A stretch of 22,324 nucleotides of DNA from a virus. The translations under genes and the position numbers were made by a program. The notes under the pieces were generated by a model. That model searched no databases. It worked only from the letters and a program-made list of their open reading frames with translations, and had not been told where the DNA came from. Positions 1 to 22,200 of the stretch are shown one piece after another (the first letter of the stretch is position 1; every line of letters starts with the position of its first letter). Where the stretch lies: positions 1-22,324 of IMG/VR virus record IMGVR_UViG_3300037264_000632. One strand, 5' to 3'.

Positions 1-1598
1 CCTGAAGAACCACTTACTCCAGACGTTCCAGAAGTACCAGCAGTTCCGGATGTTCCACTTGTTCCTGAAGTTCCGTTTGTTCCACTTGTTCCTGAAGAAC
101 CACTCACTCCTGATGTTCCAGATGTACTTGAAGTTCCTGATGTTCCACTTGTTCCTGATGATCCACTTATGCCAGATGTACCTGAAGTACCAGCAGTTCC
201 CGAAGTTCCTGTTGTACCGCTAGTTCCAGATGAACCACTTACTCCAGATGTACCGGATGTACCAGCAGTTCCTGATGTACCTTCTGTTCCACTCGTACCT
301 GATGTACCCGATGTACCTTCTGTTCCACTCGTACCTGATGTACCACTACCTCCCCCATTTAATGAAAATGACGCGGTTAAAGTATAGGAAGAAGATATTA
401 CATTAAGTGCCCACGAGGAAGTAATAGGATAAGTTGATCCAGTAGTTAAATTTGACCCCCCACCACTTGTTCCACTTGTTCCTGAAGAACCGCTTCCTCC
501 CGACGTTCCTGAAGTACCTGAAGTTCCCGATGTGCCTCTTGTTCCACTTGTGCCAGACGAACCAGCCGTTCCACTTGTTCCCGATGAACCACTCACTCCT
601 GATGTACCAGATGTTCCCGATGTACCCTTTGTTCCGCTTGTACCTGAAGTACCTTCCGTTCCACTGGTTCCCGATGATCCACTCACTCCCGATGTTCCAC
701 TCGTACCAGACGAACCAGCCGTTCCACTTGTTCCCGATGAACCACTCACTCCTGATGTACCAGATGTTCCCGATGTACCACTTCCTCCCCCATTTAATGA
801 AAATGAAGCGGTTAATGCATATGAGGAAGATACTGTATTAAGTGCCCATGAAGAAGTAATAGGATAAGTTGATCCGGTGGTTAAAGTTGTTCCCGATGTA
901 CCTGATGTTCCGGATGTACCTCTTGTGCCCGAAGAACCACTTACTCCAGATGTTCCGCTTGTTCCTGTTGTGCCTGCTGTTCCACTAGTTCCAGATGAAC
1001 CACTCACTCCTGATGTTCCAGATGAACCACTTATTCCTGATGTACCCGAAGAACCATCAGTTCCACTAGTTCCAGATGAACCGCTCACTCCTGATGTTCC
1101 TGAAGAACCGCTCACTCCTGATGTTCCTGAAGAACCACTCACTCCTGATGTTCCTGAAGAACCTCTTGTGCCACTTGTACCTGAAGAACCACTAGTTCCT
1201 GATGTACCCGAAGAACCTCTTGTGCCACTTGTACCTGAAGAACCACTTACTCCTGATGTTCCTTCTGTTCCACTAGTGCCCGAAGTACTACTTCCGCCAC
1301 CATTTAATGAAAATGAAGCGGTTAATGCATATGAAGATGAAATGGTATTAGTACTCCACGACGCGGTTATTGGATATAATGATCCAGTAGTTAAACTTGA
1401 CCCGCCACCACCACTAATTCCACTAGTTCCAGATGAACCACCAGACATCAACGATGAAGTAGATATAAAAACCAAATCATTTGCCGCGTTAGTAACTAAC
1501 GCGGAATTAGGTTGTACAACCAAGGGATATTCTTCAAATTGACCGTTGGTAAGTTTTCTAGTTAAGAATATATCTTTTGCTTTTTGATAGTTGGGCAT
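1..1598 (-). CDS. Collagen-like (Gly-Thr-Ser) phage fibre protein, 3' end outside window
   Basis: This minus-strand frame is open from ATG at 1598 to the left edge, giving at least 532 codons with no stop. Residues 1-50 (MPNYQKAKDIFLTRKL...) form a non-repetitive head, probably for attachment. The rest alternates Gly-X-Y tracts, mostly G-T-S, G-V-S, G-S-S and G-T-E, with three copies of a roughly 36-residue module containing LTTGSxYPIT(S/A)SW followed by SSSYALTASFSLNGGG. Strict glycine at every third residue is the collagen signature, so a trimeric rod with small globular interruptions is likely. The gene follows the gp15-like stop by three bases and belongs to the same minus-strand unit. 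No good Shine-Dalgarno precedes the ATG. A tail or whisker fibre is the best guess; attachment site and receptor cannot be read. Collagen-like character is well supported, function less so. Confidence 0.8.
   Translation of the reverse strand, partial: MPNYQKAKDIFLTRKLTNGQFEEYPLVVQPNSALVTNAANDLVFISTSSLMSGGSSGTSGISGGGGSSLTTGSLYPITASWSTNTISSSYALTASFSLNGGGSSTSGTSGTEGTSGVSGSSGTSGTRGSSGTSGTSGSSGTSGTRGSSGTSGVSGSSGTSGVSGSSGTSGVSGSSGTSGTDGSSGTSGISGSSGTSGVSGSSGTSGTAGTTGTSGTSGVSGSSGTRGTSGTSGTSGTTLTTGSTYPITSSWALNTVSSSYALTASFSLNGGGSGTSGTSGTSGVSGSSGTSGTAGSSGTSGTSGVSGSSGTSGTEGTSGTSGTKGTSGTSGTSGVSGSSGTSGTAGSSGTSGTRGTSGTSGTSGTSGGSGSSGTSGTSGGGSNLTTGSTYPITSSWALNVISSSYTLTASFSLNGGGSGTSGTSGTEGTSGTSGTSGTEGTSGTAGTSGTSGVSGSSGTSGTTGTSGTAGTSGTSGISGSSGTSGTSGTSSTSGTSGVSGSSGTSGTNGTSGTSGTSGTAGTSGTSGVSGSS
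349..1414 (-). repeat. Three copies of a ~36-aa fibre module between Gly-X-Y tracts
   Basis: Near-identical segments lie at about 1294-1414, 784-889 and 349-464 on the minus strand. Each reads as an LTTGS-YPIT-SW motif, then SSSYALTASFSLN, then a short poly-glycine linker leading into the next Gly-Thr-Ser tract. The Gly-X-Y tracts fill 890-1293, 465-783 and 1-348. A related LTTGS-YPITSSW motif occurs in the plus-strand fibre gene at about 19140 and 21321, so the module is shared between fibre genes on opposite strands. Confidence 0.85.
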
Positions 1599-1601
1599 AG
1601 T

Positions 1602-2768
1602 TTATGAAAATTTACCTATTGCAACTCTTCTCCATAATCCTTTAGAATAAATATAAAAATATTTATCGTCATAAGATACTTGTCCTTCGTTCCCCGGACC
1701 ATTTGTATTGGTAGGAGGACTTACTATTTGAAGAGTATTTGAACAAACCGGAGTTCCGGTATCTATTGTTTCTAATGGAGATCCACCATTAATGGAGTTT
1801 AATGTATTAAGAATTGTGGCAGTCATTGAAGAATCTTCTATATCATCTACAACAGTAATTCCCGGTTTCGGTATTATTTCATCTTTTGGTAGATTTGGAT
1901 AATCTGGGTTTCTCCATTTTTCTCTGTTTTTATCCAGCGTACTCATATCAAAATCGGAAGAAACAACTTCCGCACCAATAATAATTTTTTTTGGCGTAAA
2001 AAATTTCTCAGTAGTTAATTTCTGATTTTCTAGAGTAGTAATTGTTTCTGGCAAAATGTATCCATGAGTTACTAAATCAAATTCGGTTTTTACAATTCTA
2101 TCTTCTCCAGCTTGTAATTCAGTAGTATGAGTATAAGATTCAACTTTTGTTCTAAATTTAAATCCATTTTTACTTCCCCAATAATCCTTGGTACTAAATT
2201 GAATATTTTCTACCAAAATATTCATTTGTTCAACATATTCGGTCCAAAGAATAAAATGATAATTTATAATCATGTGGCTCGGAAAAACAATATTATAAAC
2301 TTCATTAACAGGTGCATTTTGTCCGGATAATAGCGAAAATTTTGTATATTTATTTTTAGTAGAATATTTTTTCATTACCGCAGAATGCAAATAACGATTA
2401 AAATATTGCAATGTAGCATCGTTTTCCGACGATGTACGTTTGAAAACCGCCAGAGGAAGAATAATTTTACCTTGTTTATCACGGAGATATCCATCTCTTC
2501 TAGCTGAAGTCCAAAGTTCGGGGGAACCATACATGACAGGAACTTGAATTGTTTCTCCTGCATCTGTTACTTGAAGGTTAATTCTTTTTAAATGTTCCAA
2601 TATCGTCTCATCAATGTCATAAAATCCAATTGTTATATTTTTTTGCTGGTCAGTATCACGTCTTACATGCGTTGACCTATTATCTTCAATTGGCTTTTCT
2701 GATAGAGATATTGATTCTCTAACAATGTTAGGCGCGGGATTTGTTTTATTGCCTTTCCATGATGGCAT
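1602..2768 (-). CDS. 15: T4 gp15-like tail-sheath stabiliser/completion protein with extra C-terminal module
   Basis: The 388-residue product resembles T4 gp15, which caps the tail tube and sheath and joins the tail to the neck. Visible gp15-like features in order are GETIQVPVMYGSPELW near residue 75, a basic stretch ending ILPLAVFKR, PSHMIINYHFILWTEYVEQM (compare the T4 segment around SIFTRYEDDMFQIVEQIL), and a late LVTHGYILPE (compare T4 FEVNGWMYPP). T4 gp15 is 272 residues, so about 110 residues are extra. The last 35 or so (NEGQVSYDDKYFYIYSKGLW and on) look like the short terminal module of many phage fibres. The start is set at ATG 2768, because GGAGG lies eight bases upstream; a GTG five codons earlier would put that motif inside the gene. 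The position after gp13- and gp14-like genes supports the call. The assignment comes from remembered family patterns, not a search. Confidence 0.68.
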   Translation of the reverse strand: MPSWKGNKTNPAPNIVRESISLSEKPIEDNRSTHVRRDTDQQKNITIGFYDIDETILEHLKRINLQVTDAGETIQVPVMYGSPELWTSARRDGYLRDKQGKIILPLAVFKRTSSENDATLQYFNRYLHSAVMKKYSTKNKYTKFSLLSGQNAPVNEVYNIVFPSHMIINYHFILWTEYVEQMNILVENIQFSTKDYWGSKNGFKFRTKVESYTHTTELQAGEDRIVKTEFDLVTHGYILPETITTLENQKLTTEKFFTPKKIIIGAEVVSSDFDMSTLDKNREKWRNPDYPNLPKDEIIPKPGITVVDDIEDSSMTATILNTLNSINGGSPLETIDTGTPVCSNTLQIVSPPTNTNGPGNEGQVSYDDKYFYIYSKGLWRRVAIGKFS

Positions 2769-2772: not shown

Positions 2773-3852
2773 TTATCCTCCACAGATTAATCCATCATAT
2801 GCTCCATCCCCCAAATAAAGATTGTATTCTCCATATGATTTAGCTGCGTGTGTTAATTGTTTTCCTATTTTTTCTTTTTTTGGGTTTTTATATCCCCGAT
2901 CCCAAAATCCGGTTCCGTGACTATTTCTTGTAAACCAGAAATCCCGTCCGGCCTCAATATCGGACCAATCTCCTTGTTCATATAATTCTCTATATTTTTT
3001 CTGAAAATCTTCACAATCCATAGACATTTTCATTAAAGTTTGTCCACAAATATCATAAATGGTATATTTTTTATCTAGTGGTGCCCCACCACTTGGAGTT
3101 AGATTATCTGTTGAAGAAAACAATGCAGCTTCAACATAACCTTGTGTAAAAGCATCCAAGTTTTTGGCATGTAATCTTCTTATTAAATTTGCACCTTCTG
3201 GAGAATCTGTACCTTCATAGTCTTTCGCTTCTTCAATAAGACCACCCCCGCCCAATTCAGCAAGATCTCTTACATCTTTGGAGGTAAGTTTTTCCAAACC
3301 ATGTATATTTGTAGCTTTAGATGCAACTTCCAATGCTTTTATAATTTCAGCGGCATTTATAAATTTATCCATGATAGTTGTTTGAGTATTATGGATGGAA
3401 TTATTTATTCTATCAATGTATGTAAAAACATTTTTTCTATCACTTGCTTTAGAAAGATTTTCTAAAAATTCTGCAATTTGTATCCATGCTGTATTTTCTC
3501 TTGGTGCTCCTTGTTTAATGGCTCTATCAGAACGTTTTGTTAATTTCATTTGTTTATCCAACTCATCGAATGAAGAATTTAAAGAAGCTTTAGATTTATC
3601 GAACCCCGGTTCTATTCTATCTGGACGAGATGCATATTTTAAAAGTTGATTGACAAGCAGTTTTTTAAAAATGGATAAATATTTCTGCTTTAATCCATAT
3701 ATTCTTTGATTTATGACATGACTTGCATAGTCATTATTTGCAATTGAAGGTGATCGTGTCACTATGTTCCACAGAAAATAGAAATCATAAATATCTACGG
3801 GTGATAAAGATTCTCCGATTGAACCTTCCAATAATAAATCTTTGAGTTTCAT
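2773..3852 (-). CDS. Conserved phage protein of unknown function with capsid-targeting-like N-terminal tag
   Basis: The 359-residue product starts MKLKDLLLEG, the same tag seen on six plus-strand proteins, ending in LLE as in a gp21-type cleavage site. Residues about 10-200 are mostly helical and charged, with no domain I recognise. The last 130 or so residues carry a pattern I associate with a widespread phage domain of unknown function: FTQGYVEAALFSS, a DCEDF motif, AGRDFWFTRNSHGTGFWDRG, and a closing LYLGDGAYDG. The invariant-looking Asp, His and Trp residues suggest an active or binding site, but I cannot assign a reaction. The gene sits between the gp14-like gene (one base upstream) and the gp15-like gene (four bases downstream), a place where T4 has no extra gene. 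If the tag works as proposed, the protein would enter the head rather than the neck. Confidence 0.72.
   Translation of the reverse strand: MKLKDLLLEGSIGESLSPVDIYDFYFLWNIVTRSPSIANNDYASHVINQRIYGLKQKYLSIFKKLLVNQLLKYASRPDRIEPGFDKSKASLNSSFDELDKQMKLTKRSDRAIKQGAPRENTAWIQIAEFLENLSKASDRKNVFTYIDRINNSIHNTQTTIMDKFINAAEIIKALEVASKATNIHGLEKLTSKDVRDLAELGGGGLIEEAKDYEGTDSPEGANLIRRLHAKNLDAFTQGYVEAALFSSTDNLTPSGGAPLDKKYTIYDICGQTLMKMSMDCEDFQKKYRELYEQGDWSDIEAGRDFWFTRNSHGTGFWDRGYKNPKKEKIGKQLTHAAKSYGEYNLYLGDGAYDGLICGG
2777..2781 (-). promoter_or_regulatory. Strong Shine-Dalgarno that fixes the gp15-like start
   Basis: The minus strand reads GGAGG followed by eight bases and ATG at 2768. The motif overlaps the last codons of the upstream gene, whose TAA is at 2775-2773. 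It is the clearest ribosome-binding site in the window; most other genes have none or rely on overlap with the gene before. Confidence 0.75.
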
Positions 3853-3853: not shown

Positions 3854-4327
3854 TTATGTTTGTCTCTTTACTACATTAAGTTTGCTTAATCTTGAATAGT
3901 GAGTATTTACTATTATAGAAAAGGATTTTTCTGGAATACCGCCCAAAAATTGTTCCTGAACTACATTATCAATTTCATGATAACGCGCATTGAATTCTAT
4001 AATATCTCCAACTTCTGGGAAAAAATTGACTAATCTTAGCATTTTTTCTCTAAATTTGAATACTACATCTTGTTTTCTCGTAGGACCAAAATCATCCTGT
4101 TCAGTGCCAATTTCTGCTCGGTCAATATGACATGTCATTTCAATGCCGGGATAAAACATTTTTCCTTCTTCTGGTTTGGATTCTCCATAAATGTTAGTAT
4201 TAGTTATATCTGGAGCTAATTTATATAAAAAAACTTCGGTTTGAATCATTTCACCTAAAAGTTCTGCATTTATGCTATGTATAAATCGCATATCTCGTTC
4301 TGACATCCATCTTCCTAATAATCCCAT
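3854..4327 (-). CDS. 14: T4 gp14-like neck (head completion) protein
   Basis: This 157-residue protein fits the gp14 neck family, which with gp13 closes the filled head and receives the tail. Features shared in pattern with T4 gp14 (256 residues) are an early SINAELLGEMIQTEVFLYKL segment (T4 has ADVLVAESIQMRGVECYYV), TNTNIYGES (T4 LIFGED), and a central PEVGDIIEFN with EIDNV (T4 PKEGDLIYFP and FEINWV). It is much shorter than T4 gp14 and lacks its acidic C-terminal part. It starts one base after the gp13-like stop and ends one base before the tagged unknown gene, consistent with translational coupling; no Shine-Dalgarno is visible. Order gp13-gp14-x-gp15 supports the assignment. A divergent neck protein of another family is the main alternative. 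Confidence 0.62.
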   Translation of the reverse strand: MGLLGRWMSERDMRFIHSINAELLGEMIQTEVFLYKLAPDITNTNIYGESKPEEGKMFYPGIEMTCHIDRAEIGTEQDDFGPTRKQDVVFKFREKMLRLVNFFPEVGDIIEFNARYHEIDNVVQEQFLGGIPEKSFSIIVNTHYSRLSKLNVVKRQT

Positions 4328-4328: not shown

Positions 4329-5618
4329 TTATAAAATATCTTTGATTGTTATAAGTGTAAAACAAGATATAAAAAGTCCTACATAAATAAAGTTTGGTAC
4401 TCTCTTAAGAGTTTCTTGTAATTGTTCTGCCATTTGAGATTGTTTTTCCATTTGATTAAATCGTCCAGCTTGTTCAAGCATTTCTCTTAAATTAACCAAT
4501 AATTTTTCTTTTTCATCTTTAGATTCTGCTCTTAATTCTCCACCATCTAATGTTATATCTCCACCAGCAATTGGAATAACTTGAATTTTTTGTCTTATAG
4601 CTCCAAGTATTTCTTTACAACATGCTAAAAAGTAATTTCTTATCCATTGTCTACCAGCATCGTTAATATCAGAATAAACATGGAAAGAATAAGGCATATC
4701 TGCAAAATCAGATGCAACATTTTGAGGAGTACCATTTTCTCCGCTTGTTCCTCCAACTATAGATCCTTTATCTCTATCCGATTCATTAATATATTCTAAC
4801 CACAAATTATATCCGTAAGTTGGAATAGGAAAAATTCTAAGTTTATTGTTTTTTATTTCAAATGAATATGCAGATTTACGAACCATATCGTTAAATTCAA
4901 TAGATTGCATTCTCAATAAATCTTCAAAAATAGGAGTCATTAAAAATTGAACGGCTGGTGAATATGCTCCAAATCCTAATTCTTGGAGAACATTAGAATA
5001 ACTCATTCCTGTCATTGAAAATGGATCATAGATACGAGCGGATGCTGGTGGTACATCATGAAAAATTTTTTTTATTTCTATACGATCACATCCTTCCAAT
5101 GAATCTCCTATAAGAGATTGAAGATCATAGTCTTGGATACCCGGTAGCACTTTGATAGAGGTCTTTTTCCAATCAACTTTACCACCAGTTCCTACTTCCG
5201 ATCCATAATCTTTTGCCAAATTAATAGCATAGGACAATCCAGATCCTATAATTGCTTGTCCTGTTACATTCGCTTTTTTTGTTGCAGTTCCCCCAAGGTC
5301 TGTCATACTCTTACCTTGAAGGAAAAATATATTATTTATTATATTATATTGGTTAACTTCTTTGCTGTATTCGTTTACAGCTTCTTCAAATGCCATATAA
5401 AATTGTCTATCAATAAGTTCAATATCAACAATTGGATATCCTAATCTATGAGCAGCCCAAACCATTGAATTATAACAATCCAACTGAAATGTTGAATCGG
5501 CATCATAAAATCCAAATGCAGTATTCCCAGGAACTTGTGACCCGCTTCCCGGCCAGCGTACTCTATCTTGATCTATTAATGTGGTCGGCATTCTATCTTG
5601 ATCTGTTAGTGTTGACAT
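4329..5618 (-). CDS. 13: T4 gp13-like neck protein (virion structural)
   Basis: The 429-residue product matches a family of T4-like aquatic-phage structural proteins treated as gp13 equivalents, needed to seal the head and join the tail. The most telling stretch is residues about 36-92: FGFYDADSTFQLD, RLGYPIVDIELIDRQFYMAF and EEAVNEYSKEVNQYN. Later come KVLPGIQDYDLQSL, a beta-rich NNKLRIFPIPTYGYNLWLEY, and a helical, charged C-terminal part (about 335-405). T4 gp13 is 309 residues, so this one is long. The first 20 residues contain an internal duplication (TDQDRMP, IDQDRVR), and ATG at 5591 is a possible alternative start. The final 20 or so residues are strongly hydrophobic, which is odd for a neck protein. 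It is the first gene of the minus-strand unit and should be read late in infection. Confidence 0.62.
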   Translation of the reverse strand: MSTLTDQDRMPTTLIDQDRVRWPGSGSQVPGNTAFGFYDADSTFQLDCYNSMVWAAHRLGYPIVDIELIDRQFYMAFEEAVNEYSKEVNQYNIINNIFFLQGKSMTDLGGTATKKANVTGQAIIGSGLSYAINLAKDYGSEVGTGGKVDWKKTSIKVLPGIQDYDLQSLIGDSLEGCDRIEIKKIFHDVPPASARIYDPFSMTGMSYSNVLQELGFGAYSPAVQFLMTPIFEDLLRMQSIEFNDMVRKSAYSFEIKNNKLRIFPIPTYGYNLWLEYINESDRDKGSIVGGTSGENGTPQNVASDFADMPYSFHVYSDINDAGRQWIRNYFLACCKEILGAIRQKIQVIPIAGGDITLDGGELRAESKDEKEKLLVNLREMLEQAGRFNQMEKQSQMAEQLQETLKRVPNFIYVGLFISCFTLITIKDIL

Positions 5619-5763
5619 AAAAGTGATAAAATCTGATGTATCTACCTGTATTCAATAAATATGACGCGACAATTCTTTATCTATAAAATAATGAGTATCT
5701 ATTTGCTTTGCTTTTTACTATTTATTTAAGTGTAGAGGTATATACTTCTCGTTGCACACATTT
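5619..5763. promoter_or_regulatory. Divergent intergenic control region with candidate late promoters
   Basis: This 145-base AT-rich gap lies between the divergent gp13-like and Nudix genes, so promoters for both directions should be here. T4 late promoters need only TATAAATA near -10. AATAAATA (7 of 8) occurs on the plus strand at 5654-5661 and on the minus strand at 5726-5719, about 100 bases from the gene each would serve. TATAAAATAA on the plus strand near 5682 is a weaker candidate. An AGAGG near 5734-5738 lies too far from ATG 5764 to be a normal ribosome-binding site. No strong hairpin terminator was seen. Placement within the gap is uncertain. Confidence 0.4.
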
Positions 5764-6738
5764 ATGCATATTAAACTTAAATCTATTTTACTAGAAGAAT
5801 ACTATGGTAAACGAGGTGCAGGTGTTATCTTTTTTTCTATTAAAACTGGTAGATTTTTATTTGGGTTAAGGTCAGCGGAAGTTATGGAATCTTATACGTG
5901 GGGGGGATTTGGAGGTAAATCTGAAGGAAATGAAAATCCTGAAGTTACTGCCCGACGAGAATCTCGTGAAGAAACCGGATATAATCCTAATCAATTAGAA
6001 TTAATATATATTTTCGAAGACGAAGAATTTGAATATTATAATTATGTAGGAATTGTAAATGATGAATTTGATCCCACATTGAATTGGGAAAACGACGAAT
6101 ATGTTTGGGTTGAATACGGAGATTGGCCAGATCCGCTTCATTTTGGAATGGAAAAAACCTTAATACACGGAAGGAATAAACTAGAAAGTATTATTTCTAA
6201 ATATAAAAATAAGGAAGTAAAAGAAGATGTTTATACCCCGCCGCCCGCCATTGTACAACATCAACCCGCAAAACCACCTCCAAAGGAAATTCAAACTGCT
6301 AAAAAGTTAAATGACGCATATGTTGTCACTGCTACTATTTGGGGAGAAGCAAGAGGAGAGGGATATCAAGGAATGCAAGCGGTTATGAATGTTATAATGA
6401 ATAGAGCAAAGGGGAATTTCCAAACCGCAAGAAACGTAGTATTAAGTCCAAAGCAATTTTCTATATGGAATGATATTTCAAATCCTGAACAATATTCTGT
6501 AAATCTTGCTAAAAAGGCAGCATCTAATGCATTAAAAGACGACAAAAGTTATAAACAAGCTCTTCATATAGTTCATCAAGCAATGACTGGAAACTTAAAA
6601 GACATAACGGATGGTGCCACTTTTTATTTCAATCCTAAATTAGCACAACCCAAATGGGCTAAAAAGTTAAGATTTATTAAAAAAATAGGAAATCACGATT
6701 TTTATGGAATCCCAAGAAACAAAAATAGAACTAAATAA
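5764..6738 (+). CDS. Tagged Nudix hydrolase fused to SleB-type cell-wall hydrolase
   Basis: The 324-residue protein begins with a tag (MHIKLKSILLEE) followed at once by a Nudix domain (residues about 15-145). The Nudix box is complete: G51-x5-E57-x7-R65-E66-x2-E69-E70-x-G72-Y73, so hydrolysis of a nucleoside diphosphate-X substrate is likely, though the substrate is unknown. A Pro-rich linker (about 155-170) leads to a Hydrolase_2/SleB-like domain (about 180-320), recognised by TATIWGEARGEGYQGMQAV with putative catalytic Glu195, then VMNVIMNRA and SPKQFSIW, and typical of lytic transglycosylase-type wall enzymes. ATG 5764 is chosen over TTG 5752 because it aligns with the tag in the other genes. 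It is first in the plus-strand cluster and overlaps the next gene by 35 bases. A cytosolic and a periplasmic activity in one chain is unusual. Both domain calls are strong; the tag's role is inferred. Confidence 0.85.
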   Translation: MHIKLKSILLEEYYGKRGAGVIFFSIKTGRFLFGLRSAEVMESYTWGGFGGKSEGNENPEVTARRESREETGYNPNQLELIYIFEDEEFEYYNYVGIVNDEFDPTLNWENDEYVWVEYGDWPDPLHFGMEKTLIHGRNKLESIISKYKNKEVKEDVYTPPPAIVQHQPAKPPPKEIQTAKKLNDAYVVTATIWGEARGEGYQGMQAVMNVIMNRAKGNFQTARNVVLSPKQFSIWNDISNPEQYSVNLAKKAASNALKDDKSYKQALHIVHQAMTGNLKDITDGATFYFNPKLAQPKWAKKLRFIKKIGNHDFYGIPRNKNRTK

Positions 6739-7042
6739 AAGAGGATTGGTAGATGATGGCGTTTTGGGATATACTTTGAAATTTCCAAATAAATCCATAT
6801 TGGAATTTGGAATTCATCAAGGAACCCGTCCTCAAAAATTTGTAATTTTTAAAGTATTTACTTATCCAAATGAACAGCATAAAGGATATGCTACAAAATT
6901 ATTAAATGCTTTTTTTCAAATAGTAAAAAAAATGAACGGATATTACGAAGTCAGTCATTTTACAAAATCTGGAAAAGATTATATTCGTCATGTTATAGAT
7001 AAATTATCAAAAAAATATGATGTAAAAGTAACTAATTTATGA
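6704..7042 (+). CDS. Small GNAT-like acetyltransferase
   Basis: This 112-residue protein looks like a minimal GNAT fold. The acetyl-CoA-binding motif A is visible as FKVFTYPNEQHKGYATKLLN, with Q-x-x-G-x-A at its core, preceded by a beta strand and followed by a helix (AFFQIVKKMN). The N-terminal part is short for the family, and the substrate is unknown. It begins 35 bases inside the Nudix-SleB gene in the +1 frame; an in-frame TAG near 6686 shows it is not simply a continuation of something upstream. It is the only member of this cluster without the shared N-terminal tag, starting MESQETKIEL. It may therefore act in the infected cell rather than in the particle, or be carried by a partner. 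It overlaps the next gene by ATGA. Confidence 0.6.
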   Translation: MESQETKIELNKRGLVDDGVLGYTLKFPNKSILEFGIHQGTRPQKFVIFKVFTYPNEQHKGYATKLLNAFFQIVKKMNGYYEVSHFTKSGKDYIRHVIDKLSKKYDVKVTNL

Positions 7043-7560
7043 TAAGTTTAAAATTATTATTAGAAGGAAGATATGATTATGGTTGTCTTATGGGAATTAT
7101 AGACGAAGAAATTTCCAGAAAAATTCTTGACTTTAATTATAATTTGATAGAAGACAAGCATTTATACAAAGACGGAAAAAATTATGGAAGAGAACATCAT
7201 CCTCATGTTACAATAAAATATGGATTTACAAAAAGTTATACCGAAAAACAAATGAAAAAAATGCTCGGTAAAATAAAACCATTTAAAGTAAAAGTAACTG
7301 AAATAGATATATTTGAAAATGATAAATGCGACGTTATTATATTGAATATTAAAAGTGATGTATTAGAAAAATTGAATAAAAAATTTTCAGAATTACCCAA
7401 TGAAGATGAATATCCTAATTATAAACCACATATAACTTTAGCATATGTCAAAAAAGGAACTGGTAAAAAATTCATAAAAAATTCCAAAACTTTTTCTAAT
7501 GTTCCTATAAAATATATTCAATATTCCGATAAAGGAGAGAAAACTTTTTATAATTTATGA
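7039..7560 (+). CDS. Tagged 2H phosphoesterase (LigT/2'-5' RNA ligase-like)
   Basis: The 173-residue product carries the tag MISLKLLLEG and then a 2H phosphoesterase domain. Both signature motifs are intact: His56-Val-Thr58 in EHHPHVTIKYGF and His131-Ile-Thr133 in YKPHITLAYVKKG, 75 residues apart as expected for the two-lobed fold. Members act on 2'-5' or cyclic phosphodiesters: LigT/ThpR on RNA ends, and phage Acb1 (T4 57B) on the cyclic nucleotides of CBASS defence. The sequence alone does not choose between tRNA-end processing and signal destruction. The gene is coupled at both ends by ATGA overlaps (7039-7042 and 7557-7560). The enzyme domain starts immediately after the tag, so the tag is an addition rather than part of the fold. 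The family call is confident; substrate unknown. Confidence 0.85.
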   Translation: MISLKLLLEGRYDYGCLMGIIDEEISRKILDFNYNLIEDKHLYKDGKNYGREHHPHVTIKYGFTKSYTEKQMKKMLGKIKPFKVKVTEIDIFENDKCDVIILNIKSDVLEKLNKKFSELPNEDEYPNYKPHITLAYVKKGTGKKFIKNSKTFSNVPIKYIQYSDKGEKTFYNL

Positions 7561-9908
7561 GAACACTGAAGTCGTTGCTTTTTGAGTTAGAATATCCTTT
7601 AGCTAATAAAGAGAATTTACAATCTTTTAAAGGAATGGCGGGTTGGAAAGGTAAAATTATATGGATGCCACCAGAAAAATTTTTAAGATTAGTCCATCCA
7701 TTGCCCGATGAATTTTTCAATGCAATATCATATGAAAATATAAAAAATAGAATGATAAAAGGATTGCCTTTAGATTTTTTAGTTTTGGAAATCGATATGG
7801 TAAGAAGAAAAGTTATCTCACACGAAGGACGACATAGAGCAAAAGCAGCAATAGAATTGGGTATACAACAAGTTCCTGTTTTCATTTATACAGGAAATAG
7901 ATTTAAACGAGTTCCTACTTGGTCGCCAGAAGATCACGATGTTATAGATAAAGCTGAATTTGATCCGGAATGGAAAAAAGAATTACAAGAAAATAATCGA
8001 CCAATAATCATTGTTGGCGTAGTTAATTATCTCGGGGCAATTGAGTCTAAAGTTGGCGGGAATCATTATCAGCTTCCTCGGGGAGGAAAAGGAAAACAAT
8101 GGAGATATAATAGTGATACCAAACGAGTATATTGGTATCATGATTTTGATCCAGAAGAAGAAGATAGAGTAAAAAGATATTTAGAAAAATATGGTTATAA
8201 TGTTGAACGACAAGACAATATAGAAAAGTGGGAACCCGAAGCATATATGAAAGCAATGGACATTGCTCATGGGGTAACGCCAGATATTCATGAAGGAATT
8301 CATTTAGATAACATAACTCAACAAATAAAAGACCTCGAAGATGAGTGGGAAGAATTGGATAGTCAAGGGACTGGTCATGGCAGACAAATTGTAATACAAA
8401 AGCAATTGGTAAGATTGTGGAAAGATAAAAAAAGATGGGATGATTTGTACGCGGCAGTAAAAAATCCTTCTAAAAGAATAAATGAAGGTAAAAAATTGGT
8501 TATGGAAGGTGTAAAGGCAAAACAAGTAGAAGCATTTTTAAAAGATACCATCGCCGGAACAGAGTGGGAAAACAAAGTATTTGCTGTTGGTGGATATGTT
8601 AGAGATGAAATAATGGGAAAAATTCCAAAAGACCTTGATGTTGTTGTGGATAAGCATCAAGGAGGTATAGAATTTACTGAATGGTTGGCAAATAAAATTG
8701 GAAATTATAAAGAAGGTAGTAATCCAGTAACTTTTCCAAAATTTGGGACGGCAAAGATGGTATTAGATGGAGCTAACTATAATGGAATAGATTTGTCCGG
8801 AGAAGATCTTGAAGCAGTAATGCCACGGGCAGAACAATATCATGATACGTTTACAAGAAAACCAACTGATGTAAAATATACAGACTTAAAAGGAGATGCT
8901 CAACGAAGAGATCTTACAATAAATGCAATTTATAAAAATATTTCTACTGGACAAGTTGTAGACCCTGTGGGTGGTGTACAGGATATAAAAAATAAAGTAG
9001 TTAGACCTCCATCTAATCCAGATTTAATTTATGCCGATGATGCTTTACGTATGTTTAGAGTTATTAGATTTGCTACCAGATTTGGATGGGAATTAACGCC
9101 CGAAGTAGCAGATGGAATTAAACGCAATTTACATCGTTTACATAATACATCTAAAGAACGAATTAGAGATGAATTAAATAAAATTATTACTAGTGATAAT
9201 CCAGATAGAGGTATCAAAATGCTTAAAGATACTGGATTATTGCCATATATTGCGAAAGAACTCCAACAAATGGTAGGAATGATACAAAACGTTCATCATA
9301 AAGATGATGTATTTGATCATACGATGGAAGTTCTTAGAAATACAAATCCTGATTTAATACAAAGATTGATGGCATTATTTCACGATATTGGAAAAGTAAC
9401 TACAAGGTCGGAAACTCCAACTGGCGTTCATTTTTATGGACATGAAAATATTGGGACAGAAATTGTTGAAAGAGTAATGAGAGACTTAAAATATCCAACT
9501 GATTTAATAGATGCTGTTAAAGTTGGCGTTGGAAATCATATGAGATTAAAATCTGGTGGAGATACTTCGGTTGCCTTGTCCGATAAATCTTTGAGAAAAT
9601 TTAAAGTAGAAATAGGAAATCAATTAGAAAATGTATTAAATCTAATTCATGCGGATAATATCTCTCATACCGATGCGTCATCCATGCCTAATCAAATTGA
9701 TCATGTAAGAAAAAGATTGGCGGCATTGGATGTTAAAGTATCCAAACCAAATCTTCCTATTAATGGAAATGATTTAATGAGCTTAGGATTAAAGCCCGGA
9801 CCTATTTTTTCTCAAATCTTAAGTGCTGTGACAGATAAATGGTATGAAAATCCAAATATCAGTAGAGAAGAGGCAATCCAAATTGCTAAACAAATGGCAA
9901 ATATATGA
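7557..9908 (+). CDS. Tagged ParB-like / CCA-adding tRNA nucleotidyltransferase / HD fusion
   Basis: At 783 residues this is about twice the length of a bacterial CCA-adding enzyme. It starts with the tag MRTLKSLLFE. Residues about 30-125 look like a ParB/sulfiredoxin-type domain, with FLVLEIDMVRRKVISHEGRH and the core H89-E-G-R-H-R94. Residues about 145-215 hold an unrecognised domain (YQLPRGGKGKQWRYN, VYWYHDF, RVKRYLEKYGY). From about 335 comes a class II nucleotidyltransferase: VGGYVRDEIMGKIPKDLDVV with catalytic D359 and D361, then RRDLTINAIY, DPVGG, and DDALRMFRVIRFATRFGWEL, all standard for Cca/PcnB proteins. An HD domain follows (ALFHDIGK with H609-D610, and later GNHMRLKSGG). The expected role is adding or repairing the tRNA 3' CCA; the HD part may be a phosphohydrolase. 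The ParB-like part might bind or cut nucleic acid. ATGA overlaps couple it to both neighbours. Confidence 0.85.
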   Translation: MRTLKSLLFELEYPLANKENLQSFKGMAGWKGKIIWMPPEKFLRLVHPLPDEFFNAISYENIKNRMIKGLPLDFLVLEIDMVRRKVISHEGRHRAKAAIELGIQQVPVFIYTGNRFKRVPTWSPEDHDVIDKAEFDPEWKKELQENNRPIIIVGVVNYLGAIESKVGGNHYQLPRGGKGKQWRYNSDTKRVYWYHDFDPEEEDRVKRYLEKYGYNVERQDNIEKWEPEAYMKAMDIAHGVTPDIHEGIHLDNITQQIKDLEDEWEELDSQGTGHGRQIVIQKQLVRLWKDKKRWDDLYAAVKNPSKRINEGKKLVMEGVKAKQVEAFLKDTIAGTEWENKVFAVGGYVRDEIMGKIPKDLDVVVDKHQGGIEFTEWLANKIGNYKEGSNPVTFPKFGTAKMVLDGANYNGIDLSGEDLEAVMPRAEQYHDTFTRKPTDVKYTDLKGDAQRRDLTINAIYKNISTGQVVDPVGGVQDIKNKVVRPPSNPDLIYADDALRMFRVIRFATRFGWELTPEVADGIKRNLHRLHNTSKERIRDELNKIITSDNPDRGIKMLKDTGLLPYIAKELQQMVGMIQNVHHKDDVFDHTMEVLRNTNPDLIQRLMALFHDIGKVTTRSETPTGVHFYGHENIGTEIVERVMRDLKYPTDLIDAVKVGVGNHMRLKSGGDTSVALSDKSLRKFKVEIGNQLENVLNLIHADNISHTDASSMPNQIDHVRKRLAALDVKVSKPNLPINGNDLMSLGLKPGPIFSQILSAVTDKWYENPNISREEAIQIAKQMANI

Positions 9909-10504
9909 TAAAATTAAAATTTTTATTAATAGAAAATTTGGATTATGATGCTGCCGAAGATTTCTTCCGTCGAAGAGACGAACAGTTGGCAGAACTTGCG
10001 GATCTTCTTAAAAAAAGCGGAGGAAAGGGAAAATTGCCTTGGAAAACTATACCTGCTAAATTATTAATGAAGGTGTGGTTGCAATTTGGAAAATATCATC
10101 GAATTAATACTAATGATTTAGATAAAATTTCAGACCAAATGCTTACAAATATTGCCAGATTACGAGCATCTACAGAAATGATGGGTCACACTTCATATGA
10201 TGTTAGGCCAGAGTTGGAAGATATAGGATATTTTTTTACAGATGAAGAATGGAAAAATTGGATGTCAAATTATTTTACAGATAAAAGAGGAGGATTTCTT
10301 TTAACTGATTATGGATTGCCAAAATTAGAAAAATTATATGGAGATATATTCACTGCTAACACCGATGAAGAAAAATTATATGCTGTAGATAAGGCATTGA
10401 ATGTAATTCATCGTAGAAGCGATTTAGCATCTATGTTTGTTGAAGGCGGAAGTAAAACTCTTAATATTATTCAATCTCAAGGCGGATATTCAAGCAATAT
10501 ATAA
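9905..10504 (+). CDS. Tagged conserved phage protein of unknown function
   Basis: The 199-residue product begins with the tag MIKLKFLLIEN, ending in LIE. No enzymatic motif is recognised. It is largely helical and rich in charged residues: an early DFFRRRDEQLAELADLLKK helix, a central TNIARLRASTEMMGHTS, and a C-terminal EEKLYAVDKALNVIHRRSDL leading to FVEGGSKTLNIIQ. The C-terminal stretch resembles segments I associate with other phage proteins of unknown function. The start overlaps the CCA-fusion stop by ATGA (9905-9908), and the next gene begins four bases after the stop. Presence of the tag and position inside the enzyme run suggest it belongs to the same set. It could be a partner, a regulator or a packaged effector; nothing in the sequence decides. 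Confidence 0.68.
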   Translation: MIKLKFLLIENLDYDAAEDFFRRRDEQLAELADLLKKSGGKGKLPWKTIPAKLLMKVWLQFGKYHRINTNDLDKISDQMLTNIARLRASTEMMGHTSYDVRPELEDIGYFFTDEEWKNWMSNYFTDKRGGFLLTDYGLPKLEKLYGDIFTANTDEEKLYAVDKALNVIHRRSDLASMFVEGGSKTLNIIQSQGGYSSNI

Positions 10505-10508
10505 ATAT

Positions 10509-11723
10509 ATGATTAAATTAAAATCATTATTAGTTAAAGAAAATGTGGGAAAAATAGAAGTTCCACAAGAACCCGGGACTGTTCCTATTCCACCCAATCA
10601 TTTAAGATTATATCATTACACTTATACCGATCCTACTATTTTAAAAAAAGAAGGATTAAAACTTTCTCGCGCCAAAGGAACAACTTACGGAGAACCAAAC
10701 TTTGTTTGGGCATCTTTACAACAACCTTCTGACACGAAAATATATGTAGAATTTTCAATGCCAATAGATGATCCCAGATTTTCAAGAATGGGAGCCAAAC
10801 CAGATCCGACTTGGGGAGTGGAATTTTATAAAGGAAAAGGTAATGATTTTACTATTTTGGGAGATGTTTCTCCTTCGGAATTCATAGCAGTTCACGAGCC
10901 TTGGCATCATCACTATAGATATATGATCGAAAATGGACTTGTAGATGGTGTTTTAAAGGGAGAATATGATTATATAGATGATAAATTTCCAAATGAAAAG
11001 AAAGCACTGGAGACTATAAAGCGAAATTTTTCAATTTCGGATATTAGTGAGCAAAGAGATGACTTTAATGAAGTAAACAAATATGAAATAGAAGATTTAA
11101 ATAATAAAGAGGAAATTATTCAATATTTGCAAGTACGTGGTAAATCTCCTGAAATTATTAATCTTGGTGGTGATGAATATATTATTTGGGAAGATTATAT
11201 TATAGATCCGGAATTTCCAAGATTAGAAAAGAAAAGAGACTGGATAAATGATACTCAGGCGTGGAGATTGGTTGGTAAACTTATATATATGATGGAAGAA
11301 AGATTTAATAAACAATTTTGGGAACATCCTCAGACATTATACCACGCAACTCCTCTTGAAAATGTGGATTCCATTCGTAAAGATGGTTTACAAATGATTC
11401 ATAAAAGTAGAGGATTAGCTAATAAGCATATAAGAGCAGCGGTTTTCACAAGCACTGAACCAGACTGGGCTACTTTCAGTTACGGTCCCGTTCAAGTAGT
11501 TATAAATACAGATGCTATGAAAAAAGATGGATTTATGCCATTTGTGACTAAAGAACCAAATCATACCGAGTCAGATGTAGTTAATTTTATTGCTCGAAAA
11601 ATAGGAGATTGGGAAGAGGATAAAGATTATACAGGTTCTTATGGAGAAGGAACTACGGAAGATACAGTTGTTGTTTATGATGATATTCCACCAAAGTATT
11701 TAGAAATAGAGGAACCAAAATGA
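10509..11723 (+). CDS. Tagged protein with two ART-like domains
   Basis: The 404-residue protein starts MIKLKSLLVKEN, a tag variant ending in VKE rather than LxE. The N-terminal domain (about 30-140) opens with LRLYHYT (H36-Y-T38), continues GLKLSRAKGTTYGEPNFVWA, and closes PSEFIAVHEPWHHHYRYM. The C-terminal domain (about 275-400) opens QTLYHATPLENVDSIRKDGL (H279-A-T281) and continues AAVFTSTEPDWATFSYGPVQ. Both openings match the first motif of ADP-ribosyltransferase-fold proteins (KptA, DarT and many phage ARTs), followed by the usual S-I-x-x-x-G-L. A linker of about 130 charged residues separates them. Catalytic glutamates cannot be placed with confidence. The start is ATG 10509, four bases after the upstream stop, not a TTG 24 codons earlier, since only 10509 gives the tag. 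NAD-dependent modification, or tRNA 2'-phosphate removal as in KptA, are both possible. Confidence 0.62.
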   Translation: MIKLKSLLVKENVGKIEVPQEPGTVPIPPNHLRLYHYTYTDPTILKKEGLKLSRAKGTTYGEPNFVWASLQQPSDTKIYVEFSMPIDDPRFSRMGAKPDPTWGVEFYKGKGNDFTILGDVSPSEFIAVHEPWHHHYRYMIENGLVDGVLKGEYDYIDDKFPNEKKALETIKRNFSISDISEQRDDFNEVNKYEIEDLNNKEEIIQYLQVRGKSPEIINLGGDEYIIWEDYIIDPEFPRLEKKRDWINDTQAWRLVGKLIYMMEERFNKQFWEHPQTLYHATPLENVDSIRKDGLQMIHKSRGLANKHIRAAVFTSTEPDWATFSYGPVQVVINTDAMKKDGFMPFVTKEPNHTESDVVNFIARKIGDWEEDKDYTGSYGEGTTEDTVVVYDDIPPKYLEIEEPK

Positions 11724-12382
11724 TAAAATTAAAGTCATTATTATTAGAAAAAACATTATATCATGGTACGGTAATTGATAATGTTCCGTCTATTGAAAAA
11801 TATGGATTAATTCCGGGTACGGGAAATTTTGTATCTGATGCGTATGGTGAATATGAAGATGCTGGAATAGAACTTCCGGAATTAGTGTTTGCGACAGAAA
11901 AATCAAAGTTGAGTGCTGCTGTTACAGCAGCAACGCATCATATAGGTAAAAAATTAAATAAAAATTTTCATGATGTATCTGATGCTGAGTTTTTCAAATA
12001 TGCTGTAATTATAAAAATATATGACGGAGAGGAATATTTTAAATATAGAGAAAAGACGGATGCGTTAAATTATGCAGATGAACATCCGCCCCAAGTAGAG
12101 CCAGGAGATTATTATTCAGAAGATTCTGTAGGAGTAGATGAATTTTTGACTGGGAATTCTATGGTAAGATTATTAAAAAGATATAATTTATGGCCAAGAC
12201 CGTTTGGAGAAATAAAACGCGATAAAACTTATGATGAAATGAGAGATTTTCTTGTAAAATTTACTTTAAACAAAAAAGATGTAGAATTATCCAAACAAGA
12301 AATAATAGATAAGATAAAAAAATTATCGCCAAAAGATTTATTTTATTGGTATAACAGATATCAACGGGAAATGGAACGGTAA
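11720..12382 (+). CDS. Tagged ART-like protein
   Basis: This 220-residue protein begins MIKLKSLLLEK, then within three residues enters an ART-fold start: LYHGT (H15-G-T17), DNVPSIEKYGLIPG, then LPELVFATEKSKLSAAVTAA. This is the common opening of phage and toxin ADP-ribosyltransferase-like domains, where the His-containing strand contacts NAD. The domain probably spans residues 12-165; the last 50 or so residues are Lys-rich and helical. If the tag is removed after Glu10, the mature protein would start almost at the catalytic strand. It overlaps the two-domain ART-like gene by ATGA and ends the tagged cluster. T4 has three ARTs (Alt, ModA, ModB), of which Alt is packaged in the head and processed. 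The acceptor is unknown and the catalytic Glu could not be fixed. Confidence 0.65.
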   Translation: MIKLKSLLLEKTLYHGTVIDNVPSIEKYGLIPGTGNFVSDAYGEYEDAGIELPELVFATEKSKLSAAVTAATHHIGKKLNKNFHDVSDAEFFKYAVIIKIYDGEEYFKYREKTDALNYADEHPPQVEPGDYYSEDSVGVDEFLTGNSMVRLLKRYNLWPRPFGEIKRDKTYDEMRDFLVKFTLNKKDVELSKQEIIDKIKKLSPKDLFYWYNRYQREMER

Positions 12383-16283: not shown

Positions 16284-19200
16284 ATGATTAGCGTAGTAGC
16301 AGGATTTGATATTACTAATTCCGAACCAGTTGATAAAAAACTGATTCAGACGGATATTACATCTAGAAATGCTATTCCTAGTTTCAATCGTTATATTGGA
16401 TTGACGGTATATGTTAAATCTGAAAATACAGATTATCGCCTCGTAGATGGAATAACCGATGCACATTGGCAAAAGATTACAGCAAGTGCGGCAATTAGTT
16501 CTAGTTATGCAGTTACATCTAGTTATTCTTTTTTTGCCGAAACTGCGTCGTGGGCAAGAACATCTAGTTATTCTGAGTTTATTTATTATAATGTTACTGA
16601 ATCGGCGCTGTTTACCACATCTTCTATTTACGCAACACAATCTATTTATGCATTATCAGCATCATGGGCATCGAGTTCAATAAGTTCATCATATGCATTG
16701 TCAGCATCATGGGCACCATCAAGTGATTTGGCCGGAACAGCATCGTGGGCAACACAATCTATTTACGCATTATCGGCATCATGGGCATCGAGTTCTATTT
16801 CATCATCATATGCATTAACTGCTAGTCATGCTATTGAATCTATTAGCTCATCCCATGCATTACATGCAATAACAAGTGTAACTGCTGACTATGCGTTGGA
16901 TAGTTTACATGCTTGGACTTCTTCGTTTGCATATGCAAGTGTAACTGCTGACTATGCATTGGATAGTTTACATGCTTGGACCGCATCATATGCTTTAAGT
17001 TCATCCGAAGCATCTTCGTCAAATTTTGCAAGATCTGCATCATATTCCTTAAATTCAACATCTGCATCATATGCTCAAACAGCATCATTTGCGATAGATG
17101 CAATATTTTCGATTTTTGCTCAACAAGCAACATATGCTACTCAATCTTTATTTGCTACTCAGTCTAGATTTGCTACTCAATCTTTATTTGCTACTCAGTC
17201 TAGATTTGCTACTCAATCTTTATTTGCTACTCAATCTTTATTTGCTACTCAATCTTTATTTGCTACTCAGTCTAGATTTGCTACTCAATCTTTATTTGCT
17301 ACTCAATCTTTATTTGCTACTTTTGCTACTCAATCTTTATTTGCTACTTTTGCTACTCAATCTTTATTTGCTACTCAATCTTTATTTGCTACTCAGTCTA
17401 GATTTGCTACTCAATCTTTATTTGCTACTCAGTCTAGATTTGCTACTCAATCTTTATTTGCTACTCAATCTATTTATGCATTGTCGGCATCGTGGGCATC
17501 GAGTTCAATAAGTTCATCATATACTTTATCAGCATCATGGGCACCGTCTAGTGATTTTGCTAATACAGCATCTTGGGCAAGTCATTCTTTGTTTTCTATA
17601 TCGGCGTCTTGGGCATCTAGTTCGATAAGCTCATCATATGCATTATCTGCTTCGTGGGCACCATCAACAGATTTTGCTGGAACATCGTCTTGGGCAACAC
17701 AATCTTTTTATGCATTATCAGCATCGTGGGCTTCTAGTTCTATTTCGGCATCCTATGCCTTATCATCATCCTATGCTTACACATCTAGTTATTCTATAAC
17801 AGCAAGTTACGTAAGTAGTGCGTTTTCATCTATTTCGGCATCACACGCAGATGTAGCGGATCAAGTAATAAGTTCATCATATGCATTATCAGCATCATGG
17901 GCACCTTCTGTACCAAGTGATTATGCGTTAATTGCAATAAGTGCATCATGGGCTTCTAGTTCACTTTCTTCCAGTTATGCATTATCAGCATCATGGGCAC
18001 CTTCTGTACCAAGTGATTATGCGTTAATTGCAATAAGTGCATCATGGGCTTCTAGTTCACTTTCTTCCAGTTATGCATTATCAGCATCATGGGCACCATC
18101 AACAGATTTTGCAGGAACATCGTCTTGGGCAACACAATCTTTTTATGCATTGTCTGCGTCGTGGGCTTCTAGTTCACTTTCTTCCAGTTATGCATTATCA
18201 GCATCATGGGCACCTTCTGTACCAAGTGATTATGCGTTAATTGCAATAAGTGCATCATGGGCTTCTAGTTCACTTTCTTCCAGTTATGCATTGTCAGCGT
18301 CACACTCAGAAACATCGAGTTTTTCTATAACATCTATTTTTGCAAATAGTGCATCTTTCGTTGAATCTTCATCTTATGCTCTTACCTCAAGCTATGCAGT
18401 AACTTCAAGTCATGCAATTACAGCATCATATGCCGTAACTCCGAGCGGAACATCTGGAACATCAGGAGTAAGTGGTTCGTCTGGAGTAAGTGGATCAAGC
18501 GGAACCTCGGGAACATCTGGAGTAAGTGGATCATCAGGAACGTCGGGAACAAGTGGGACAGCAGGAACAAGAGGAACATCCGGAACATCTGGAGTAAGCG
18601 GATCAAGTGGAACCTCGGGAACATCTGGAGTAAGTGGATCAAGTGGAACCTCGGGAACATCTGGAGTAAGTGGATCAAGTGGAACCTCGGGAACATCTGG
18701 AGTAGATGGAACTTCAGGAACAAGTGGAACGGCTGGTTCATCTGGATTAGATGGTAATCCTGGAATTCCTGGTGTAGATGGAACCTCTGGAACTAGTGGA
18801 ACAAAAGGTACTTCGGGAACGTCTGGAGTTTCTGGAGCAGAAGGTACATCTGGTACAAGTGGTACAAGAGGCACATCAGGAACATCAGGAACATCTGGAA
18901 TAAGTGGATCATCTGGTACAAGTGGCACAAGAGGTTCATCGGGAACATCTGGTACAAGTGGAACAGCAGGAACCGCAGGAACATCTGGAGTGAGTGGTTC
19001 ATCAGGAACATCTGGAGTGAGTGGTTCATCAGGAACATCTGGAGTGAGTGGTTCATCAGGAACATCTGGAGTGAGTGGTTCATCAGGTACATCCGGTACG
19101 AGTGGAACATCCGGTTCATCAGGAACAAGTGGAATAAGTGCTAATTTCACAACTGGGTCACTATATCCAATTACATCATCTTGGGCCGAAAGTGCATCTT

Positions 19201-22200
19201 ATTCATTGGATGCCTTAAGTGCATCATATGCATTGAGTGCATCATATATAGGAGAAGGGGTTGATAACTACGTTCCAAAATGGCAAAACAACACCTTAAC
19301 TCCTACAAGTTTAATTTATGAGGATGGAGTAGATGTAGGAATTGGCACGATACTTCCAACCAATAGATTACATGTATCTGCCACTGTTGATCCACTACGA
19401 TTACAAAATGTAATAGAATCATCAGATATTGATTTATTGACCATTGATATTAGTGGAGTTGTTCACTCGAATAAAACAGCATCTTATGCTTTATTTGCAA
19501 GGGAAGCATTATCAGCCTCGTACACTTTAAGTGGAAGTTATTTTAAATTATATGATGTAACTCAATCTCTAACATTCGTTGTATCGGCATCATGGGCTTC
19601 TAGTTCACTTTCTGCATCATATGCATTAACATCAAGTCATGCAATAACAGCATCGTATGCTATAACTCCAAGCGGTACATCAGGAACGTCGGGAACAAGA
19701 GGAACATCGGGAACAAGAGGAACATCGGGAACGTCTGGGACAAGCGGAATATCTGGTTCATCGGGAACAAGTGGAACATCTGGAGTAAGTGGTTCTTCGG
19801 GCACCAGTGGAACAGAAGGTACTTCTGGAACAAGTGGAACATCGGGAATAAGTGGATCATCAGGAACGTCGGGAATAAGTGGATCATCAGGAACGTCGGG
19901 AATAAGTGGATCATCGGGAACATCGGGAATAAGTGGATCATCGGGAACGTCAGGAACATCGGGAATAAGTGGATCATCGGGAACGTCAGGAACATCGGGA
20001 ATAAGTGGATCATCGGGAACGTCAGGAACATCGGGAATAAGTGGATCATCGGGAACGTCGGGTACAAGTGGAACGGAAGGTACATCGGGAACAAGTGGAA
20101 CGGAAGGTACATCGGGAACAAGTGGAACATCAGGAACGTCAGGAATAAGTGGATCAAGCGGAACAAGTGGAACAAGAGGAACTTCGGGAACAAGAGGAAC
20201 TTCGGGAACAAGTGGAACAGAAGGTACGTCTGGAACAAGTGGAACAGAAGGTACGTCTGGAACAAGCGGAACGGAAGGTACGTCTGGAACAAGCGGAACG
20301 GAAGGTACATCTGGAACAAGCGGAACGGAAGGTTCATCGGGAACAAGCGGAACAAGAGGTTCATCTGGCACAAGAGGTACTTCAGGTACAAGTGGCACAA
20401 GAGGTACATCTGGTACAAGTGGTGCAGAAGGCACGTCTGGAACAAGTGGAACGGAGGGTACGTCTGGAACAAGCGGAACGGAAGGTACGTCTGGAACAAG
20501 CGGAACGGAAGGTACATCTGGAACAAGCGGAACAAGGGGTTCATCAGGAACATCCGGTACATCAGGAACATCTGGAGTAAGTGGTTCATCAGGAACATCT
20601 GGAGTAAGTGGTTCATCTGGAACAAGTGGAACAAGAGGAACTTCGGGAACAAGTGGAACAGAAGGCACGTCTGGTACAAGTGGAACAGAAGGTACGTCAG
20701 GAACAAGCGGGACGGAAGGCACGTCTGGTACAAGTGGAACATCAGGAGTAAGTGGGTCATCCGGAACGTCTGGTACTTCAGGAACAAAAGGTACTTCAGG
20801 AACATCAGGCGTAAGTGGGTCATCAGGAACAAGTGGAACATCAGGAGTAAGTGGGTCATCCGGAACGTCTGGTACTTCAGGAACAAGAGGTACTTCAGGA
20901 ACATCTGGTATTAGTGGAACAAGTGGAACAGAAGGAACATCTGGTACAAGTGGAACATCAGGAGTAAGTGGGTCATCCGGAACGTCTGGTACTTCGGGAA
21001 CAAAAGGCACTTCGGGAACATCAGGAGTAAGTGGGTCATCAGGAACAAGTGGAACAGAAGGTACATCTGGTACAAGCGGAACATCAGGAATAAGTGGGTC
21101 ATCTGGAACGTCTGGTACTTCAGGAACAAGAGGCACTTCGGGAACATCTGGAGAGGGCGGTTCATCTGGAACGTCTGGTACTTCAGGAACAAGAGGCACT
21201 TCGGGAACATCAGGAGTAAGTGGATCATCTGGAACAAGCGGAACAAGGGGAACATCAGGAGTAAGTGGATCATCTGGAACGAGTGGAACAGCAGGTTCAT
21301 CCGGAACAAGTGGAATAAGTGCTAATTTTACAACCGGGTCATCATATCCAATTACATCATCTTGGGCATTATCCGCTTCATATGCATTGAGTGCATCTTA
21401 CATCGGAGAAGGGGTTGATAATTACGTTCCAAAATGGCAAAATAATACCTTAACTCCTACGAGTTTAATTTATGAAGATGGAGTAGATGTAGGAATTGGC
21501 ACGATACTTCCAACCAATAGATTACATGTATCTGCCACTGTTGATCCATTACGATTAGAAAGTGTCCAAGCATCGACAGATATTGATTTATTGACCATTG
21601 ATGTTAGTGGAGTTGTTCATTCAAGTAGAACAGCATCTTATGCATTATTTGCAAAGGAAGCATTATCAGCCTCGTACACTTTAAGTGGAAGTTATTTTAA
21701 ATTCTTCGATGTAACTCAATCTCTAACATTCGTTGTATCGGCATCATATGCATCAGGATCAACCTCTGCATCATATGCATTAACATCAAGTCACGCAATA
21801 ACAGCATCGTATGCTATAACTCCAAGTGGTACGTCTGGTACAAGTGGAACAAAAGGAACATCAGGAACGACCGGAACAAGCGGTACAAGTGGAACAAAAG
21901 GAACATCAGGAACAAGCGGAATAAGTGGGTCATCAGGAACAAGTGGAGTAAGTGGTTCATCGGGAACGAGTGGAGTAAGTGGTTCATCGGGAACAAGTGG
22001 AACAGAAGGAACGTCGGGAACAAGTGGAACAGAAGGAACGTCGGGAACAAGTGGAACAGAAGGAACGTCGGGAACAAGTGGAACAGAAGGTACATCTGGA
22101 ACAAGCGGAACAAGGGGTTCATCAGGAACATCCGGTACATCGGGTACAAAAGGTACGTCAGGAACATCTGGAATAAGTGGATCATCGGGTACAAGTGGTA

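Follow-up and report, generated by a model that had tools for sequence, protein, structure and literature searches.

Bacteriophage T4 loads several internal proteins into its prohead by means of a short N-terminal leader. In IPIII, about ten N-terminal residues direct targeting to the prohead, with residues 4 and 7 needed for targeting and residues 8 and 10 for cleavage (PMC9026906). Cleavage sites are known for T4 gp24 (MAKINELLRE/S; the slash marks the cut), gp21 (MNEPQLLIE/T) and gp23 (SFLTE/A) (PMC9958956). The injected internal proteins are anti-restriction factors that block type IV restriction enzymes (PMC12373910), and T4 Alt is an ADP-ribosyltransferase (PMC9026906). The idea of effector domains delivered together with DNA is also familiar from the polyvalent proteins of phages and conjugative elements (PMC5512222).

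The gene described here resembles those for T4 IPI, IPII, IPIII and Alt in its leader of about ten residues, with glutamate at position 9 or 10 and hydrophobic residues at positions 4, 7 and 8, in the presence of one leader on unrelated proteins, and in belonging to T4-like phages with a gp21-type protease. It differs from the genes for the T4 internal proteins in the leader itself (MIKLKxLLxE here, MKTYQEFIAE in T4), in its unrelated cargo, and in its location in a neck operon instead of the ip locus; injection of its product is a prediction.

The target gene is part of a late neck operon. We analyzed a stretch of viral DNA of 22,324 nucleotides (the window), in which the open reading frame of the target encodes a protein that begins MKLKDLLLEGSIGES (Table 1). 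A single base separates the end of the gp14-like gene from the target ATG, and the probable gp15-like ATG directly follows the target stop, indicating that the target belongs to the operon. The gp15-like family aligned with T4 gp15 (94%, E 8.6e-8, hhalign), and the gene upstream in the window matched phrog_211, the head-tail adaptor Ad2 that corresponds to T4 gp13. One member of the 157-aa gp14-like family matched phrog_679 (head closure Hc2, T4 gp14), and the alignment of that family with T4 gp14 itself was weak (hhalign). The six other tagged genes (5764-12382) are on the opposite strand. The first-pass annotation had placed the tag MKLKDLLLEG on a gene inside the neck operon, on the strand opposite the tagged cluster, and both the reading frame and the neck assignments were confirmed. 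Domain and PHROG profile searches found no match to a neck family in the target protein. Both ends of the window (1-1542 and 16,900-22,324) contain long repetitive reading frames, with VPDVPxVP repeats in antisense, that are probably collagen-like fibre genes.

Table 1. Positions of the target gene, its parts, its neighbors and the other tagged genes in the window.
Feature	Position	Strand	Basis or remark
Target gene: leader, helical middle region and phrog_1915 domain	2773..3852	-	359 aa, ATG at 3852
Leader MKLKDLLLE/G, predicted to be cut by the prohead protease after E9, at bases 3826/3825	3823..3852	-	same leader on other window genes and in relatives
Residues 10-225, helical by prediction, low confidence	3178..3825	-	structure prediction; no relatives found
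phrog_1915 domain, residues 226-350, motif AGRDFWFTRNSHGTGFWDRG	2803..3177	-	profile match, E 2.4e-23
gp15-like tail sheath stabilizer, downstream neighbor	1602..2768	-	hhalign to T4 gp15
gp14-like head closure protein, upstream neighbor	3854..4327	-	position; phrog_679 Hc2 in one family member
gp13-like head-tail adaptor Ad2	4329..5618	-	phrog_211, E 1.3e-9
Tagged: MHIKLKSILLEE, Nudix and cell wall hydrolase	5764..6738	+	
Tagged: MISLKLLLEG, 2H phosphoesterase (Pfam Acb1 / 2'-5' RNA ligase)	7039..7560	+	
Tagged: MRTLKSLLFE, tRNA nucleotidyltransferase / HD	7557..9908	+	
Tagged: MIKLKFLLIE, no assignment	9905..10504	+	
Tagged: MIKLKSLLVKE, RNA 2'-phosphotransferase-like	10509..11723	+	weak match
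Tagged: MIKLKSLLLE, unassigned, starts with LYHGT motif	11720..12382	+	

The leader of the target is shared by genes for otherwise unrelated proteins of the same phage, as is the case for internal proteins that bear a capsid-targeting sequence (CTS). It recurs on the six other tagged genes of the window and on about 34 genes of close relatives. A fixed tag pattern matched 7 of the 23 window genes, compared to 1 of 1,413 genes in 80 unrelated viral loci; the same pattern was found in 12 of 386 genes of a 369-kb relative (G001) and 22 of 169 genes in five other close relatives, and at 0-0.28% of internal methionines. Among 25 tags of ten residues, positions 4 (L), 5 (K) and 10 (E) were invariant, position 7 was L or I, position 8 was L, I or V, and positions 6 and 9 varied. 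The tags thus have hydrophobic residues at 4, 7 and 8 and a terminal glutamate in the form [LI]xE. The leader of the target is one residue shorter than these, with LLE at positions 7-9. More distant T4-like relatives (L109, L112, L115 and G001:98025-98810) have a second type of tag, MKKSxLKxIIRE, on several genes, one of them located in the gp13-gp14 slot.

The LLxE end of the tags agrees with the cleavage sites of T4 gp21, gp23 and gp24. The propeptides of T4 gp24 and gp21 are close to MKLKDLLLE/G in both length and LLxE end; these are capsid and protease proteins, unlike the target, which would be cargo. Relatives of the window encode a gp21-type protease (Peptidase_S77) and Gp23; Flavobacterium phage immuto and Microcystis phage Mel-JY01 are relatives that have been isolated. 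In eight relatives, the gp23 propeptide ends in QLISE, QIVSE, QLIDE, QLVYE, QLLDE, QLVTE or QLIEE followed by A or S, and these ends line up with the T4 site in the form Q[LI][VIL]xE. Both the protease and the matching gp23 site are known from relatives, since the window, a 22-kb fragment, lacks gp21, gp22 and gp23. The gp21-type prohead protease of G001 (71400-72503, equivalent to L142:11400-12503) contains an apparent mini-intein directly after its GELDHP motif, with junctions GELDHPDS/CLTQSGQ...FWSGN/SVVNLK.

The C-terminal domain of the target is widespread. The first-pass annotation had called this domain widely conserved in phages, and this was borne out: it matched phrog_1915, a PHROG family without an assigned function (named Pham177 in two annotated phages) with conserved columns Y, DC, TR and HG.GFWD in an alignment of 71 rows. 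The family was detected by Tblastn in 430 of 50,697 phage records using a more typical member as query (289 with the window protein as query), and also on several plasmids and in bacterial genomes. In five phages that we examined, phrog_1915 was a stand-alone protein that did not have the leader of the target and was encoded among hypothetical genes (for example, in the terminal repeats of a Caulobacter phage). Carriers of the family include the cluster E mycobacteriophages Lilac and Nala and the Caulobacter phage CcrSwift. In other cases, it was embedded in proteins of approximately 1,040-2,440 aa (L009, L011, L017, L019, L026, L028, L045, L054 and L059), and Pfam searches of the large fusion proteins found no informative partner except an AdoMet decarboxylase in L044. 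Most members of the family are untagged, stand-alone and acidic, whereas the window member carries a tag, is joined to a unique helical region and is nearly neutral. The net charge of the window domain was -1, in contrast to a family mean of -15, and the window domain may therefore have diverged in function. An idea that the family mimics DNA, suggested by the mean charge of -15, was dropped because of the charge of the window member.

Searches by structure and profile gave little further information about the domain. Neither Pfam nor NCBIfam covers it, and our literature search found no paper that names it. An AlphaFold2 model of residues 220-359 was confident (pLDDT 95.5) and all-helical with a small hairpin; Foldseek found no match to it in the PDB at E <= 0.001, and in BFVD matched only unnamed or uncharacterized phage proteins, including those of Synechococcus phages. 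A motif-only PDB profile match to ananain (E 0.085) raised the idea of a papain-like protease, which we rejected because the model is all-helical and without a PDB match. The N-terminal 220 residues were predicted to be helical with low confidence. No relatives of the full-length target turned up when viral contigs were searched with the single protein, and the L035 protein as query found nothing beyond L035 itself. The target has some likeness to polyvalent proteins in that ART-PolyVal domains are found on co-tagged proteins and phrog_1915 lies inside proteins of 1,400-2,400 aa elsewhere. Unlike in polyvalent proteins, no known LPD or other polyvalent domain was found in the target, and phrog_1915 is the one domain recognized in it.

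Shared leaders on phrog_1915 genes were concentrated in T4-like phages. For 95 loci, we compared the N-terminus encoded by the phrog_1915 gene with those of the other genes on its own contig. Carriers that were positive for Gp23, or syntenic to a Gp23-positive contig, were classed as T4-like, giving 12 T4-like carriers and 83 others, some of which may still be T4-like if they are fragments without a Gp23 match. At a score of at least 40, sharing was found in 5 of 12 T4-like carriers versus 2 of 83 others (p=2.5e-4), and at a score of at least 34 in 6 of 12 versus 3 of 83 (p=7e-5), with the caveats that carriers of one lineage are not independent and that start codons were picked mechanically (some leaders begin with GTG). 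One carrier, L036, was classed as T4-like by synteny only, with the Gp23-positive G028; recounting it as not T4-like gave p values of 0.003 (at least 40) and 0.0008 (at least 34). The match in L088 was proline-rich low complexity and was rejected as a leader; it is still counted in the 2 of 83. The pairwise score of the window itself was 34, against a 99th percentile of 33 for the null, a narrow margin that reflects the short leader; the case for the window rests on the motif counts given above.

The T4-like carriers had five mutually unrelated families of leaders, all ending in [LI]xE or L[VL]E, indicating that the label was acquired repeatedly. In addition to the window leader, these are MKITENKLKEIIGKVVRRKLDE/ (KLDE/) in L035, in a block that directly precedes gp22 and gp23, with MKLTKVQLKEMIRQAVRQQLGE/ in its relative L080; MKVKSGLTRRLVE/ (RLVE/) in L036; MNKLNEQVSRMRAIMGISE/ (GISE/) in L294; and MRAKQLVNRLLE/ (RLLE/) in L261, the last two each on the phrog_1915 gene and four more genes. 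The proteins in L013 and L014 start with MKAAQILEALVE/, which resembles the leader in L261, and no neighbor has the same start. About half of the T4-like carriers (for example, L038, L054 and L072) had no clear shared leader. Among the others, the phrog_1915 gene and its neighbors in L039 and L041 (approximately 5,000-10,400; G042:89587-94849) have in common a leader, ISDxGxxRI, without an LxE end, in a myovirus-like phage that has no Gp23 match and is not T4-like. The comparison that had been proposed for homologues of the domain thus supports the idea behind it, with tags often present in T4-like phages and mostly absent elsewhere.

Based on these results, we consider it likely that the target is packaged in the prohead, cut between E9 and G10, and injected with the DNA. 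Packaging, cleavage and injection are all inferred from the leader and its distribution. The earlier suggestion that carriage of the tag marks the domain itself as injected gains support from the concentration of shared leaders in T4-like carriers.

It is unlikely that the target is instead a structural protein or assembly factor of the neck or the prohead core, comparable to gp67, gp68 or a neck accessory protein, with a leader that docks to the scaffold and an action within the particle. The location of the target inside the gp13-gp14-gp15 operon is what would be expected of such a component, and tagged genes recur in the neck operons of relatives, which fits the reading as injected cargo as well. 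L089 has a tagged gene (MINLKKLITE) between gp13 and gp14, and the protein in this slot is conserved in L089:11165-11674, L095:13289-13858 and L096:10797-11411 with a changing leader and a retained L[IL]TE site; the homologues in L095 and L096 have another start and keep LLTE. The proteins inserted in other neck operons had no homology to the N-terminal region of the target. There are phrog_1915 genes near neck or tail genes in L022 and L036 as well. However, the domain is absent from the 16 close relatives with the same neck that were searched, and its stand-alone members away from structural genes and its presence on plasmids do not fit a part of the neck. A consistent location of the homologues in the neck had been named as grounds for abandoning the idea of injection; the homologues are not consistently neck genes, and this objection fails.

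The possibility that the shared N-termini have no role in targeting and are recombination or translation-start cassettes passed from one gene to its neighbors appears very unlikely. Some tags do have identical codon runs (TCA TTA TTA), and the tagged genes are tandem and overlapping. However, all six leucine codons (TTA, CTC, CTT, CTG, TTG and CTA) are used and vary freely while positions 4, 5, 7, 8 and 10 hold, indicating that the amino acids are conserved and that the tag is not a DNA repeat. Additionally, the leaders of other T4-like lineages are unrelated and converge on [LI]xE, which a DNA cassette would not predict. Least probable of all is a leader that sends the target elsewhere in the infected cell (the replication compartment or the membrane) and ends in LxE by coincidence: jumbo genomes occur among the relatives (369 and 321 kb) and not all carriers have LxE leaders, but the length and residue pattern fit the T4 CTS and the gp24 propeptide, and in G001 several tagged genes lie together in the stretch from gp23, the major capsid gene, to the neck gene gp13.

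If the target is an injected head protein, then its first nine residues, MKLKDLLLE, would act as a capsid-targeting sequence. The protein would be made late from the neck operon and join the prohead core, and the gp21-type protease would cut after E9. The mature protein (GSIGES...) would remain in the head and enter the next host with the DNA. Phages without the tag would express phrog_1915 as a stand-alone protein instead. Once in the host, the domain might act as the T4 internal proteins do and block a host defence or some other host function as infection begins, a suggestion that we make tentatively and by analogy. An anti-defence role is a reasonable guess, given that type IV restriction enzymes are what the T4 proteins block.

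The other tagged proteins appear to be effector-like, as expected of early host-directed proteins. Pfam matches among 40 tagged proteins of the clade included tRNA nucleotidyltransferase (five), ART-PolyVal (four), GNAT (three) and Nudix (two); an Acb1-like 2H phosphoesterase, a thymidylate kinase and a cell wall hydrolase were each found once. The tagged 2H phosphoesterase of the window matches Pfam Acb1 (anti-CBASS), and, if injected, this enzyme would counter CBASS ahead of phage gene expression. The Nudix and cell wall hydrolase reading frame and an overlapping acetyltransferase-like reading frame (together 5764-7042) correspond to a single protein in L089 and L090, and the window may therefore contain a frameshift or a recent split at this position.

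The kind of protein to which the target appears to belong, the T4-type internal protein, is already known. The novelty is that a widespread orphan domain turns up repeatedly as tagged cargo, and does so with several independent leaders. The repeated occurrence of phrog_1915 behind head-loading leaders in T4-like phages provides a first directional clue to its role, namely that its action in the host likely begins within the first minutes of infection. With slightly less confidence than the proposed block of a host function, we suggest that phrog_1915 may be a phage-wide early anti-host module that T4-like phages turned, on at least five independent occasions, into head cargo for injection by way of lineage-specific leaders. 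If so, the targets of phrog_1915 would be early and widespread host defences, and families of leaders would allow injected proteomes to be predicted from nothing more than the sequence. The analysis also shows that capsid-targeting leaders can be picked out in T4-like phages that have not been cultivated, giving a list of candidate injected proteins, here including ADP-ribosyltransferase, Acb1-like and tRNA-repair enzymes, for tests against bacterial defences.
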